41,705 nucleotides of DNA from a virus: positions 1-41,705 of IMG/VR virus record IMGVR_UViG_3300005529_001089; one strand, written 5' to 3'. Below are positions 29,774-41,705 of the stretch, in pieces (the first letter of the stretch is position 1; every line of letters begins with the position of its first letter). The notes under the pieces were generated by a model, which saw only the letters and a program-made list of their open reading frames with translations, made no database searches and was not told the DNA's origin. The translations under genes and the position numbers were made by a program.

Positions 29774-31426
29774 TTAGCGGAAGCCGGCGGCGCGCGAGCC
29801 GCCCTTCTTCTTGCCGGACACGAGCCGGCGCGCCATCCGGGCGAGCATCACGGCCATCACGGAATCGATCTTCCGAGCCGATTCGCGGTGTTCCTTGCGA
29901 ACGGTGACGCCCCACGCGTTCGGCCAGCGGCGCGCGTTGTGGAAATGCTGCTTCACCGCGGCGTTGCCGTCGTGGTGGAACGTCTGCTCGGTGATCTCGT
30001 TCTGCAGCCGCTCGATCTCGATCGTCGTGTCCTTCTGATGCGACCGCATGTCCCACGCGATCGGATGCTTCGGCGACGCCTTGATCTTCAGCTTCTTCCC
30101 GTACTCCTCGGCCCACTTGTCGACGTAGGACTCGAACGGGTGCAGATCACTGAAGAACGCGAGCACGTTGAACCGCTCAAACGCGTTCGCGACGGCACCA
30201 TCAACGAGGTCGCGCGGCACCTCACCGTCATGCTGGGCCGGATCCCACACGCCGAGCGTGAAGACGTATCCGTCCGACACGCGGCAGCCAATCAGCGACG
30301 TGTGATCGTCGGTGAGCGACGGGTCGAGACCGAGCGTGATGTCGGCGCCATCCCTGACCGTCACCGGGTCGGCGAGCCTGTCCCACTCGTGCGGGGCAAT
30401 CCACGCGTCCTCGGCGGCGACGATCTGGTTGAGATAGAACCTGCGCGACGTCGACGGGCTGTTGCGCGGGTCGTAGATCTCCTCGACATGGCGGTCTTCG
30501 TCGAGCCACTTCGAGTCACCCTTGGCTGCGCTAAGACCCGCACGGAGGAGCAGTTCGTCGGCGAGGTCGATGTCAGGCGGCGCTTCGAGCGAGTCGTACA
30601 GAAATCCGGTAGAGCGCGAGCGCCCCTGGTCGATCGCCTGCCACGCCTCGTAGTCGTGCTCGGCGTCGCTGTCCTCGCCCGGCTCATGCGCGTTGCTGAT
30701 AGCGAGCACGCGGGAGGCACCGTCACGTGACTTAGTCGCGTTGCGGGCGATGACCTTCGCCATCTCGTGCCCGTCGTTGTTCGCAAGCCAGTGCTGCGTC
30801 TCGTTCTTCAGCACGAACGTCGCTCGCGGCCCCTCGAGCGCGCGCGGGCTGGATGTAACCGCCTCCAGACGCGAACGGCCGTGATTGGCGAAGAGGATCT
30901 CCTTGCCGAGGTCGATGCCGTACTCGCGGATCGCAGCATCGGAGAAGAGCCCCGGGAAGAGCGTCATCGTGTTGCGGGTCTGATCCTTCGCAACAGCGGC
31001 CGTCAGAACCCAAGCGGCCGGATGCGGCGCAGCGACCGGGTCGCCAGCATCGTTGAAGCCTGCGAAGCGGCAAGGACCGACGAACTCGTTCGCGCACAGC
31101 GTCGCGCCGACTGGATCCTTGCCCCACCCCTTGACCCGACGGAGCATCCCGTACCGGTAGATGAACCGGCCGTGATCATCGATCGCGTACCACCAGAGGA
31201 CGAAACGTGCTTGTTCGTCGGTGTAGCGCCAGCGCTGGCCGGCGTCGGGGCCGTCGGGCTGACGCAGGTACTCGGCCGTCCAGGCGAGCACGTCCCAGCC
31301 GAGCGTGAGCTCGGGTAGCACGTACTTCGTCTTCGAGCCCTTACGCAGCTGCCAGGTCGGCCCGATTGAGACAGGCTTGATGGACGGCTTAGCAGGCGCG
31401 GCCCGTTTGGTCGCCGCTGCGGGCAT
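29774..31426 (-). CDS. terL: terminase large subunit
   Basis: A 550-aa packaging motor. The ATPase domain has a Walker A-like loop at 97-106 (RRVKGWGKDP) and a Walker B region at 202-210 (ATFVLKNET; N-E instead of the common D-E). The RNase H-like nuclease domain has D368 (ITLGLDPSLTDDHT), an acidic site near D427 (FFSDLHPFESYVDKW) and D521 (RKIDSVMAVMLARM). It pumps and cuts DNA together with the small subunit and portal. Confidence 0.93.
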   Translation of the reverse strand: MPAAATKRAAPAKPSIKPVSIGPTWQLRKGSKTKYVLPELTLGWDVLAWTAEYLRQPDGPDAGQRWRYTDEQARFVLWWYAIDDHGRFIYRYGMLRRVKGWGKDPVGATLCANEFVGPCRFAGFNDAGDPVAAPHPAAWVLTAAVAKDQTRNTMTLFPGLFSDAAIREYGIDLGKEILFANHGRSRLEAVTSSPRALEGPRATFVLKNETQHWLANNDGHEMAKVIARNATKSRDGASRVLAISNAHEPGEDSDAEHDYEAWQAIDQGRSRSTGFLYDSLEAPPDIDLADELLLRAGLSAAKGDSKWLDEDRHVEEIYDPRNSPSTSRRFYLNQIVAAEDAWIAPHEWDRLADPVTVRDGADITLGLDPSLTDDHTSLIGCRVSDGYVFTLGVWDPAQHDGEVPRDLVDGAVANAFERFNVLAFFSDLHPFESYVDKWAEEYGKKLKIKASPKHPIAWDMRSHQKDTTIEIERLQNEITEQTFHHDGNAAVKQHFHNARRWPNAWGVTVRKEHRESARKIDSVMAVMLARMARRLVSGKKKGGSRAAGFR

Positions 31427-32213: not shown

Positions 32214-32217
32214 CGGA

Positions 32218-32537
32218 TGGAGCCGGCGGGAGTCGAACCCGCGTCCGACCAGGTCGTGCAGGAGTGCCGTCTACCAGCTTTCTGGGGGCGTGTGCCCTCC
32301 ACCAGGGCGCCGTCTTTCCCGGCCCGAGTCAGCCCGTCTTTCCAGGCTGTCCGTCGCGTAGGTGCTGTTACGCGGCGACCAGGTCGAACTCGCGCACCCA
32401 CTCGGTGGGGAACGTGAGATCCGACGCGGAACGATCCATGTCGTTCGCACTTGCGGTTGCCCGGCTGGGCCAGCACGGTAGGCCGTGACCCGCTGGAGCA
32501 CTGCTGTCGTGCCAAGCCGTCGAAGCCAAGCGGCCCC
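32218..32537 (-). ncRNA. ssrA: phage-encoded tmRNA
   Basis: The 320-nt minus-strand RNA starts GGGGCCGCTTGGCTTCGACG, the tmRNA signature, and ends with GGACGCGGGTTCGACTCCC, then GCCGGCTCCA. The acceptor GGGGCCG/CGGCTCC pairs at all seven positions and has G3-U70, the alanine identity pair. CCA is not encoded. The tag frame runs from GCG at 32448 to the TAA at 32370-32368: 26 codons beginning A-N-D-M-D and ending F-D-L-V-A-A. A helix CAGCAGTGC/GCACTCCTG joins the two halves, and GC-rich segments on either side can form pseudoknots. It rescues stalled ribosomes and tags the peptide for proteolysis (with host SmpB). It lies 5 nt after one CDS and 4 nt before the next, without a visible promoter. 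Confidence 0.95.
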
Positions 32538-33395: not shown

Positions 33396-34322
33396 TCAGG
33401 CGGCTTCGCCGTTCACGACGCGGTAGACCGTCCGAAGCGAGACGCGGAATTCGACGGCGATCTCCGCTGGCGTGGCCCCGGTGTCCGCGCGCTCGCGCAT
33501 GCGGTTGTCGCGAAGGTCCTTCGCCGCTGTGCCTGCCTCAGCTCGCATCGGCCCGAGGACGCGTTTCTCGGGCGGGGCAGCCGGCGCGCGAAGCTGGCGG
33601 TTTCTGTCGACGTCGCCGGCGCGCTCGTGCCAGACGTCGCCCCCTGGAAGTCGATCCGACAGGAAGGCGAGCGCGGCGTCGCGCTCAGCCTCGACGACCG
33701 CGGAGAGCTTGGTGAGCCAGCCGTAGATGTGGACGGCGTGGATGATCCGGTAGGCGCGATCGTCAGCTTCGCGCAGCTGCTCGAGCGCGCGGTTGAGCGG
33801 GCCGTAGTCGAACCGCTCATACATCCGCTCGCGTGCCGATTCCCAGGCGTACCCGTGCTGGTTGGCTTCTTCGAGGAGGTCTGATTCGGATCGCGGCGGC
33901 TTGGTCTGAAGTTCGAGGATTGCGATCTGCCGGTCGCGTTCACGTGCGGCTTCATGCCTGTTGATGTCGACGCCGACGACGGTGCTGACGGCGTAGGGGT
34001 CGCGGCTGCGCGGGGTGCGGATGGTGCCGGCGCCGCGGCAGGTCTCGCAGCCGAACATCACCTTGTCGTTCGCGAGGCAGTCGGGGCAGGTCTCGCGGTG
34101 GTCGCGATCGTCGTGGACGAATCCCGGTGCGGCGTCGATGCGAACGGTCTGCTGTGGGAGGTTGTCGTCGCTGGTCTCGAGGAGGCGGATGATGGCGGCA
34201 CGCCGGACCGGATCTAGCCCTTCCACCCCTGTTTCAAGACCTCTGAAACCCGTACACGTTCTCGGCTGCTGAGTCCACCGGTCTACATCGCGGTCGTCTA
34301 GTGGTGCTACCCCACCCGTCAT
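33396..34322 (-). CDS. zinc-finger plus HTH protein, replication region
   Basis: A 308-aa protein. A DnaJ-like four-cysteine finger is at C79/C82 and C92/C95 (ETCPDCLANDKVMFGCETCR). The middle is helical (DYGPLNRALEQLREADDRAY). A resolvase-like HTH at the C-terminus (TPAEIAVEFRVSLRTVYRVV) suggests DNA binding. Start overlaps the initiator gene stop (ATGA). It could be a transcriptional regulator or replication accessory factor. Confidence 0.75.
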   Translation of the reverse strand: MTGGVAPLDDRDVDRWTQQPRTCTGFRGLETGVEGLDPVRRAAIIRLLETSDDNLPQQTVRIDAAPGFVHDDRDHRETCPDCLANDKVMFGCETCRGAGTIRTPRSRDPYAVSTVVGVDINRHEAARERDRQIAILELQTKPPRSESDLLEEANQHGYAWESARERMYERFDYGPLNRALEQLREADDRAYRIIHAVHIYGWLTKLSAVVEAERDAALAFLSDRLPGGDVWHERAGDVDRNRQLRAPAAPPEKRVLGPMRAEAGTAAKDLRDNRMRERADTGATPAEIAVEFRVSLRTVYRVVNGEAA

Positions 34323-35602
34323 GCAGCGACCTCCTCGGAGTCGTCGGCGTCGGTTCGGATCTGATCGGCGAGCGCGTGCAGCTCGCCGCGCTCAATGTCG
34401 TCCACGTTCTGCCAGTCGTCGATGACGTCGTGCAGCTCGCCGATCGGAAACCCGCGCTCGTTCGCCTTCACGCTCACCCAGCGCAGCCTGGCCTGCTCGG
34501 GCGTCTCACGCTCAGCCGCCGGCTCTTCGCCAGCGCGGACGCGAGCGGCAAGCTCGAGAAGTTCGGCGAGCCGATCATGTGAGTGGTGCTGGGCGAGCGC
34601 GACCTTCAGGTCAGCATCGGACAAGCTGGCCATGAGCCGGACGTACCGTTCGGGATCGTCACGCTTGAGAGCGTCCGCCGTCCAGGGTGCCACCGCGTAC
34701 GCCACGCTCGGCATCGCAGCCATGAACTCGGCCTGGAATTGCGCGGCACGCTCGGCTCTGACGATGCGCAGCAGATGCGTCAGCAGCCCGCACGGGTTGG
34801 CCGGCCGCCGCGATCGCATCGTCTCCACGGCATCGAGGAAGACGCTCCGCGGCAGCCCATATGCGAGCTCGCCGATCCTCTTCGGGGACGCGGTGTCAGC
34901 GCCCGGCAGTGCGTTCACGATCTCGGCGACCTCGCGATCGGTGATCGCTGGTTCTGCAGCAGCAGGATCTCCAGGCCCTTCGCCTTCAGGTTCTCTTTCG
35001 GTTCTGCTGCTGCTTCTCTTACGGTTCTTCTGCACGTGCGCGCGGGGGGCTGACACGTTGAAGTCATCGGTTTTGACACGTTGAACAGTGGCTTCTTGAC
35101 ACGTTGAATGGTCTGGGATGACACGTTGAACGGGTTCGGTTGAACGTGTCAGATTGCCGCCCTGACCCTCAGACGCATCCGCAACGCCGCTCACCGAGCG
35201 GGATGCAGCGACCACCGGAGTTGAACGTGTCAGATTGCCGCCCTCAACCGGGATGGGCGATTCATCGAAGCGATGGGGAAGGTCGAAGGGGATGCGCTCG
35301 TAGTCGACGTCGACGGCGCCGTGCAGCACGCGATAGACGGTCACGAACGACCGGCCGCGGCGCACCTTCAACGTCTGGATGTCCCCGAGCTCCAGGAGCG
35401 ATTGGATCGCCCGCCAGACCGTCTTGCGGTGGACGCGCGCCAGCCGACAGAGCGTCTCGTCATCGTCATGCTTGTCGTCGCCGACGAGGATCCAGGTCAC
35501 GCCGTCTCGCCATGCACAGTCGGCGAGCGCCAGGAGAACGTTCCTGTCGTTTCCCTCGGCGAGCGAGTTACGCATGGCCGCGGCGAAGACGTTCGAAGCC
35601 AT
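34319..35602 (-). CDS. replication initiator-like protein with winged helix
   Basis: A 427-aa protein. Residues 20-92 form a winged helix (DDETLCRLARVHRKTVWRAI, then RRGRSFVTVYRVLHG), as in phage O-type and plasmid initiators. A long unstructured middle (105-235) is encoded by DNA with iteron repeats. The C-terminal part (ITDREVAEIVNALPGADTAS, then VFLDAVETMRSRRPANPCGL) is helical and could bind the helicase. ATG 35602 overlaps the upstream stop (TGATG). Lambda O has the same layout: DNA-binding domain, origin in the coding sequence, partner-binding C-terminus. There is no loader gene like P nearby; the SNF2-like helicase is upstream. Confidence 0.75.
   Translation of the reverse strand: MASNVFAAAMRNSLAEGNDRNVLLALADCAWRDGVTWILVGDDKHDDDETLCRLARVHRKTVWRAIQSLLELGDIQTLKVRRGRSFVTVYRVLHGAVDVDYERIPFDLPHRFDESPIPVEGGNLTRSTPVVAASRSVSGVADASEGQGGNLTRSTEPVQRVIPDHSTCQEATVQRVKTDDFNVSAPRAHVQKNRKRSSSRTEREPEGEGPGDPAAAEPAITDREVAEIVNALPGADTASPKRIGELAYGLPRSVFLDAVETMRSRRPANPCGLLTHLLRIVRAERAAQFQAEFMAAMPSVAYAVAPWTADALKRDDPERYVRLMASLSDADLKVALAQHHSHDRLAELLELAARVRAGEEPAAERETPEQARLRWVSVKANERGFPIGELHDVIDDWQNVDDIERGELHALADQIRTDADDSEEVAA
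35051..35151. repeat. iteron cluster, candidate phage replication origin
   Basis: TGACACGTTGAA occurs exactly at 35051-35062, 35074-35085, 35097-35108 and 35119-35130, spaced 23, 23 and 22 bp (two helical turns). An inverted copy TTGAACGTGTCA lies at 35140-35151 and another at 35221-35232. The four direct copies are read in all three codon phases of the host gene (FNVS, VQRV, STCQ), so DNA rather than protein is conserved. A pyrimidine-rich strand with about half A+T follows at 34987-35034, resembling an unwinding region. Confidence 0.85.
35139..35244. repeat. 25-bp exact direct repeat flanking the iterons
   Basis: The 25-bp sequence starting GTTGAACGTGTCAGATTGCC is present at 35139-35163 and again at 35220-35244. 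Each copy includes one inverted iteron. In the protein it gives the repeated GGNLTRST. Recombination between the copies would remove 81 bp (27 codons) in frame. Confidence 0.85.
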
Positions 35603-40818: not shown

Positions 40819-41163
40819 TCACCTGACTCCGCAGATCCGCGACGTGTTCGGCCACTGATTGCCGCCCCACCGGCGCCCGTTCGCTTGCCAGATCAGCCAC
40901 GCCACGAATGTCTGCTGTGCCGGCGACGCATCCGCCGGATCCCTCGGCCAACCCCTCGGCGCGAACACCGCCCACGTCGTGACGTCGATCTGGAAGCCGC
41001 CATGATCGCGCGAGCGCGCACCAGTCGAACTCGTCCTCTCGTGCCAACTCCCTTCGTACCGATGGATGCACGCCGCCTGGGTCAGCCACCATTTCGGGTA
41101 GGCGGCCGCTGTCGATGGGACGAGCAGTGACGCTATGACGAGAACGAGCGCGATCCACTTCAG
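40819..41163 (-). CDS. secreted lysozyme/Rpf-like protein with CTG start
   Basis: A 114-aa frame without any ATG, GTG or TTG near its start. The first codon after the in-frame stop that fits is CTG at 41163, which overlaps the preceding TGA (CTGA) just as neighbours do with ATGA/GTGA. It gives a signal peptide (KWIALVLVIASLLVPSTAAA). The compact domain has C32, E37 (ACIHRYEGSWHER), a GGFQI motif (55-59) and C111 (WPNTSRICGVR), as in transglycosylase/resuscitation-factor-like actinobacterial proteins, where E is catalytic and the two Cys pair. It would cut peptidoglycan outside the membrane. Confidence 0.75.
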   Translation of the reverse strand: MKWIALVLVIASLLVPSTAAAYPKWWLTQAACIHRYEGSWHERTSSTGARSRDHGGFQIDVTTWAVFAPRGWPRDPADASPAQQTFVAWLIWQANGRRWGGNQWPNTSRICGVR

Positions 41164-41705
41164 GCCTCAGCCCGTCCGGCAGGGGACACGGCCTCGGGCG
41201 GCAACACCCGGCGTTCAGAAGCGACGACCGCGAAGAGATCGCGGCGCCACCTGATCTTTTCTTCGCTCTCCGTCTCGACTGTCTCGCCGAGAAGGTTCAC
41301 GTCATAGCGCGGCCTGGATCCGTTCTTCGTTGCGCGGTCGCTGGCCGGCACGATCCCGTCCTCGACGAAGCCCGCCGCGCGCGGGCTCGTTCCAGGCTCG
41401 CTCGCCAACGTGTAGGTGTAGAGCCTGCGCCAGCCGAGCGCCTTCGCAGCGCGCGCGATGGCGCCGTACAGCCTGGAGCACGCGTTCTCGTGGCCGAGCG
41501 TGCAGATCCGAGTGACCTCGAGAGTCCGACCATCCATGAGCTCGCGAGCCGGGACGCCCGCCAGCGCCACAGCGACGAGCTGCGAATCGATCGCAAGCCC
41601 GACGCGGAGCACTTCAGCGCTCGCTGGACGCCGGTTGTGGCGATGGTGCGCACGCACGAACGCACGCGCGTCGTCACGCGAAACGGGAACGAGCTCTACG
41701 GCCAC
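41160..41705 (-). CDS. XF1762-family GNAT-like protein
   Basis: A 181-aa protein whose parts match the phage XF1762 family: FVRAHHRHNRRPASAEVLRV, then RTLEVTRICTLGHENACSRL and YTYTLASEPGTSPRAAGFVE. The fold is GNAT-like (an acyl-transferase core), with unknown substrate. GTG at the very edge of the window is taken as start, but a longer protein cannot be excluded. Its TGA overlaps the CTG start of the next gene. Confidence 0.8.
   Translation of the reverse strand: MAVELVPVSRDDARAFVRAHHRHNRRPASAEVLRVGLAIDSQLVAVALAGVPARELMDGRTLEVTRICTLGHENACSRLYGAIARAAKALGWRRLYTYTLASEPGTSPRAAGFVEDGIVPASDRATKNGSRPRYDVNLLGETVETESEEKIRWRRDLFAVVASERRVLPPEAVSPAGRAEA

Follow-up and report, generated by a model that had tools for sequence, protein, structure and literature searches.

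The repeats inside the O-like replication initiator gene of this phage are very probably its origin of replication, a theta-type origin of the lambda kind at which the encoded protein would bind and from which replication would fire; we put the probability of this reading at roughly 0.86. The DNA analyzed here, hereafter the window, is an IMG/VR virus record of 41,705 bases (66.9% GC) that carries integrase, tape measure, major head, portal, and terminase genes. An earlier note on this DNA had placed the phage origin in the initiator gene, and this placement is supported by the observed repeats and their codon phases, the gene family, the winged-helix model of the N-terminal domain, the recurrence of the arrangement across the gene family in a census, and the likeness to lambda. 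The result is a precise, testable candidate origin for an uncharacterized high-GC phage group. The genes referred to below are:

29774-31426, terminase large subunit gene, about 3.6 kb from the repeats
32215-32537 (-), tmRNA gene (Rfam RF00023, 50.4 bits, gathering score 47)
33396-34322 (-), paired-cysteine gene, next after the initiator gene, with motifs CPDC and CETC
34319-35602 (-), O-like replication initiator gene, 427 aa, ATG at 35602
35273-35602 (-), winged-helix N-terminal domain of the initiator (residues 1-110, AlphaFold2 model), candidate iteron-binding domain
41160-41705 (-), gene matching Mom-like DNA modification proteins (PHROG 1384, E 3.5e-24)

The O-like initiator and its relatives

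The gene encodes an O-like phage initiator, since weak PHROGs matches, a profile built without the window, and the predicted fold all agree; the previously suggested winged-helix, initiator-like character of the gene is thereby backed. In PHROGs, the matches to O-like families have E values of 2.5e-4 and 9e-4 (PHROG 8540/391 group), and there was no match above the cut-off in Pfam and none in NCBIfam. The window-free profile comprises the N-domains of 69 phage initiators (69 of the 73 in the census below, the other four being without the anchor motif), relatives of four of the five phage matches inspected below. Searched against 642 ORFs, it recovered the window initiator at E 6.8e-8 and the same-slot gene of locus L015 at E 3.3e-11, with the next match at 0.66 and the next window ORF only at E 1.1. 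Residues 1-110 were modeled with AlphaFold2 from a 59-sequence alignment (the window, L015, and 57 of the 69 profile members), giving helices and a beta wing, i.e., a winged helix, at a mean pLDDT of 80.7. The best match of this model in BFVD is replication protein O of phage Min27 (E 3.5e-6), one of 44 matches at E <=0.001, and solved structures in the PDB match weakly, all at E >=0.02. The full-length model was poor (pLDDT 42, with the linker unstructured) and was left out of the fold searches.

No close relatives of the initiator were found in the phages, plasmids, viral_contigs, or genome_contigs collections, and the exact two-iteron pattern had no match in viral_contigs. A terminase search yielded 80 loci, in two of which (L008 and L015) the gene adjacent to the initiator was detected by tblastn, and in none of which the initiator itself was. 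The neighboring gene retrieved seven loci, two of them again on the L008 and L015 contigs, and a profile search of six records gave no initiator match. Of four same-slot genes (L015, L087, L090, and L091), the two compared with PHROGs, those of L015 and L087, both match initiator families, and repeats comparable to the multi-phase array of the window are absent from all four. The lack of close relatives and of comparable repeats in these four same-slot relatives counts against the origin reading.

Two other sets of repeats were considered in these loci. Three nearby copies of AGGGGGTGC/GCACCCCCT in L015 were not counted as an array because all are in one phase. Locus L088 has two intergenic repeat sets at 216-489, ACGTCAGACCCGTCTGACG palindromes and AACCCGTCATA copies, located between a helix-turn-helix (HTH) gene and the paired-cysteine gene; being intergenic and near the HTH gene, they were not treated as homologous to the window iterons.

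The iteron array within the gene

The array and the tract next to it consist of the following elements:

35220-35249, second 30-nt unit holding an inverted copy, 93% identical to the first, 81 bp away, same frame
35221-35232 (+), inverted copy, identical to the copy at 35140, one substitution relative to the iteron, phase 1
35140-35151 (+), inverted copy with one substitution (TTGAACGTGTCA), phase 1
35139-35168, first 30-nt unit holding an inverted copy, encodes GGNLTRST
35119-35130 (-), direct iteron 1 in gene order, TTCAACGTGTCA on the coding strand, phase 1
35097-35108 (-), direct iteron 2, phase 2
35074-35085 (-), direct iteron 3, phase 1
35051-35062 (-), direct iteron 4, phase 0
34976-35035 (+), pyrimidine-rich tract of lower GC on the downstream side (gene direction) of the direct copies, candidate unwinding element

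The four exact direct copies of TGACACGTTGAA reported earlier are all present. They had been described as 22-23 bp apart and in codon phases 0, 1, 2, and 1; the measured steps are 23, 23, and 22 bp, and the same phases were computed in the minus-strand ORF. Allowing up to two mismatches, TGACACGTTGAA has 11 matches, compared with 1.68 on average and never more than 6 in 100 shuffles. When the codons of the gene were shuffled synonymously 1000 times, no 12-mer was repeated in 679 of the shuffles and none exceeded two copies in the other 321, vs. four copies observed. The 10-nt flanks of the direct copies agree pairwise at 1-5 of 10 positions (random mean 2.75), whereas the cores agree at 12 of 12; because the flanks are near random while the cores are identical, the direct copies are not a recent plain tandem duplication. 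Protein coding does not explain these direct repeats. Compared with its own reverse complement, TTCAACGTGTCA agrees at 6 of 12 positions and thus has no obvious dyad.

The two inverted copies are a different matter. Both exist, as had been noted, but neither is exact, they share one phase, and each sits in a copy of a duplicated unit. The two 30-nt units have a 25-nt identical core and look like an in-frame duplication. Since the inverted copies are identical to each other, in one phase, and part of a duplicated unit, they are weaker evidence and give no independent sign of selection at the DNA level. The earlier claim that selection acts on the DNA therefore depends on the four direct copies, with the inverted copies adding less than had been assumed.

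These duplicated units, together with the unstructured linker of the poor full-length model, would fit a neutral expansion of repeats within a disordered linker, functionless as DNA sequence. However, such an expansion is very unlikely to account for identical direct cores between random flanks, for direct copies spread over three codon phases, for a copy number of which even three was never reached in the synonymous shuffles, and for an architecture that recurs in the initiator family. One other cluster of at least four identical 9-mers within 300 bp occurs in the window, at about 1890-2100; its 9-nt units (AGCGACGTC type) repeat in frame within coding sequence, making it a protein-level repeat unlike the iterons.

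The DNA around the iterons is also unusual in composition. The T/C-rich flank noted previously contains 46 pyrimidines in 60 nt (34976-35035) and is the most pyrimidine-biased 60 nt in the window; the fraction of 60-nt stretches equally biased on either strand, 2.4e-5, corresponds to about one stretch, namely this one. The flank was likewise described correctly as lower in GC (31 of 60 at 34978-35037, within the lowest 0.4% of the window). No 100 bp of the window is lower in GC or less stable than the iteron array (35055-35154, 48% GC), and the AT-richest 60 nt lies inside the array, with the low-GC tract at 34978-35037, which overlaps the most pyrimidine-biased stretch, next to it downstream. 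Third-position GC starts at 0.88 in the N-domain, falls to 0.57 across the iteron linker and to 0.49 over the 37 codons that follow, and recovers to 0.83 in the C-terminal part; given this drop in the linker, the shift in composition also affects synonymous sites. The drop is not unique in the window, as 5.0% of 8640 stretches are equally low, many of them in ORFs unconfirmed as genes. GC skew had been proposed as a check on the origin. Cumulative skew does turn near 35-36 kb, but the turn is a maximum, whereas the usual rule for origins would have the reverse; this counts against the origin reading, with GC skew here confounded by gene strand and uninformative as an origin marker.

Intragenic repeats in other O-like initiators

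A tblastn search with residues 1-110 returned nine weak phage matches (best E 0.5), five of which were inspected; the other four were a duplicate phi2 record, a capsid protein, and two ECD7 records. The five are annotated as an O-like initiator, a primosomal protein, a helix-turn-helix protein, and two hypothetical proteins. Clear multi-phase repeats are present in Pseudomonas phage phi2, Sphingopyxis phage VSN-002, and Burkholderia phage Bcep176; p42 is a weak case, in which a single near-palindromic 9-mer was counted three times, and there are none in 45A6. The N-domains of the phi2, VSN-002, and Bcep176 initiators align with that of the window at 28-32% identity, and their intragenic repeats fall in several phases, as in the window; Bcep176 gp11, for example, has four AACAGTCCCAA copies at exactly 22 bp in phases 2, 0, 1, and 2. 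By contrast, the iteron sequences in this group differ from that of the window (AACAGTCCCAA, ACCCCCGCA), and the proteins are shorter (211-268 aa vs. 427 aa).

We then conducted a census of O-like initiators in IMG/VR, with loci gathered by N-domain similarity and by searching with the whole Bcep176 gp11 protein. This gave 115 loci, 106 with an N-domain match, 105 complete ORFs, and 73 genes after removal of near-duplicates, including L123, which seems unrelated and was retained as a negative. A gene was scored as having multi-phase repeats if a 9-mer was repeated three or more times within a 200-bp span, using two or more codon phases, and 98 other ORFs of at least 180 aa from the same loci served as controls. 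Of the 73 non-redundant initiators, 63 had multi-phase repeats, compared with a single one of the 98 controls and with 22 of 1460 shuffles that kept the amino acids; the census members are related and so not independent events, and the loci were drawn with queries (Bcep176, VSN-002, phi2, and p42) some of which were already known to carry repeats. Within the census, multi-phase repeats inside O-like initiator genes are the rule. Among the 63 genes with repeats, 42 have them in all three phases and six in mixed orientation. The commonest step is 22 bp (71 intervals), followed by 17 bp (61 intervals), and the 22-23 bp steps of the window belong to the 22-bp class. Relative to the repeats, the AT-richest 60 nt is downstream in 54 of the 63 genes, upstream in nine, and inside in none; its position inside the array of the window is thus unlike all 63 census genes and counts against the origin reading.

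Lambda served as a control, and the likeness to lambda drawn previously is borne out, as its annotated origin also has multi-phase iterons within gene O. Its four annotated iterons are spaced at 20, 24, and 23 bp in phases 0, 2, 2, and 1, with the AT-richest 60 nt directly downstream. The exact 9-mer criterion misses these degenerate iterons, so that lambda scored through a chance 9-mer only; its real iterons emerge with 7-mers. The lambda origin and the window share iterons in the middle of the initiator gene, steps of about 20-24 bp, and three codon phases, and the low-stability tract downstream in lambda may have a counterpart in the lower-GC tract of the window. They differ in that each lambda iteron is an inverted repeat to which an O dimer binds, as stated in passages of PMC5043065, whereas the window has 12-bp direct repeats plus two inverted copies, and in that the lambda AT-rich tract (18 of 60 GC) is far AT-richer than that of the window (31 of 60). 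The window protein did not match lambda O by blastp, N-domain profile, or hhalign; the only link is PHROG 391, matched by the C-terminal half of lambda O and the N-terminal half of the window protein. According to passages of PMC7466680, gene O of lambdoid phages carries the origin in its middle; this origin comprises an AT-rich region together with iterons, of which lambda has four and Stx phages have six. Iteron changes designed to preserve the amino acids abolished transformation by the plasmids in that work.

The candidate origin

A plausible course of initiation can be proposed. The winged-helix N-domain would bind the 12-bp iterons at their intervals of about two helical turns, and the DNA could be bent in a nucleoprotein complex made up of several bound copies. 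The low-stability array and the adjoining pyrimidine-rich tract might then open for helicase loading, in which the initiator's helical C-terminal part may be involved. We infer these steps, from binding and bending through opening and helicase loading to origin firing. No P, DnaC, or DnaB homologues were seen among the ORFs scanned, a subset of all ORFs, which counts against the origin reading. The product of the paired-cysteine gene might be a replication partner of the initiator; in the window it also has a C-terminal helix-turn-helix, and several of the group's phages carry relatives of the gene.

Winged-helix proteins are commonly regulators, and the repeats could be operator sites bound by the initiator or another phage regulator for transcription control, with no origin function. 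The PDB profile matches include MarR and ArsR repressors, and L088 has repeats of a different sequence upstream of its HTH gene, in keeping with such a role. We nevertheless consider operators unlikely, as the array lies about 370-550 bp within the gene and not at a promoter, its position recurs in 63 of 73 O-like initiators, and the same intragenic position is a proven origin in lambda-type phages, according to passages of PMC7466680.

It is extremely unlikely that the repeats serve DNA packaging or partition instead of replication. The terminase large subunit gene is close enough to bring packaging to mind, and partition proteins such as TubR are winged helices too, with a weak fold match to 6tey. 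However, the repeats are located within the initiator gene and not in a terminase small-subunit or par gene, and the architecture tracks the initiator family across diverse phages.

With a lambda-type origin as the preferred reading, the architecture is of a known kind and probably a distant relative of the lambda arrangement. It differs from plasmid iteron origins of the F, P1, and RK2 type in that the iterons are inside the initiator gene, whose family-model matches are to phage O-like proteins and not to plasmid Rep. The window has features of its own in the sequence of its iterons, in plasmid-like direct repeats joined by an inverted pair, in the pyrimidine tract, and in a distant initiator. 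It is possible, although somewhat doubtful, that an origin in the linker is a near-rule for O-like initiators, whatever the phage or the iteron sequence, with a preferred 17/22-bp grammar running through three phases, and that the window extends this rule to a distant branch combining plasmid-type direct, non-palindromic iterons, an inverted pair, and a pyrimidine-rich instead of an AT-rich tract. A literature search of listings and passages found no paper on this phage group and no survey of intragenic iterons across O-like initiators, and we do not claim that there is none. Scanning O-like initiator genes for multi-phase repeats yields candidate origins from sequence alone, and may aid origin annotation in uncultured phages and the building of phage-based replicons.

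A few other features of the record are worth describing. The tmRNA gene lies between the initiator operon and the terminase genes, and its tag comprises 28 residues (ARAGORN); tmRNA is also present in two related phages (L015, 8338-8662, and L008, 1372-1701). At the left end, positions 1-40 resemble by eye the 3' half of a tRNA gene and directly adjoin the integrase gene, and therefore this end may be an attachment site. The Mom-like gene sits at the right end of the record.
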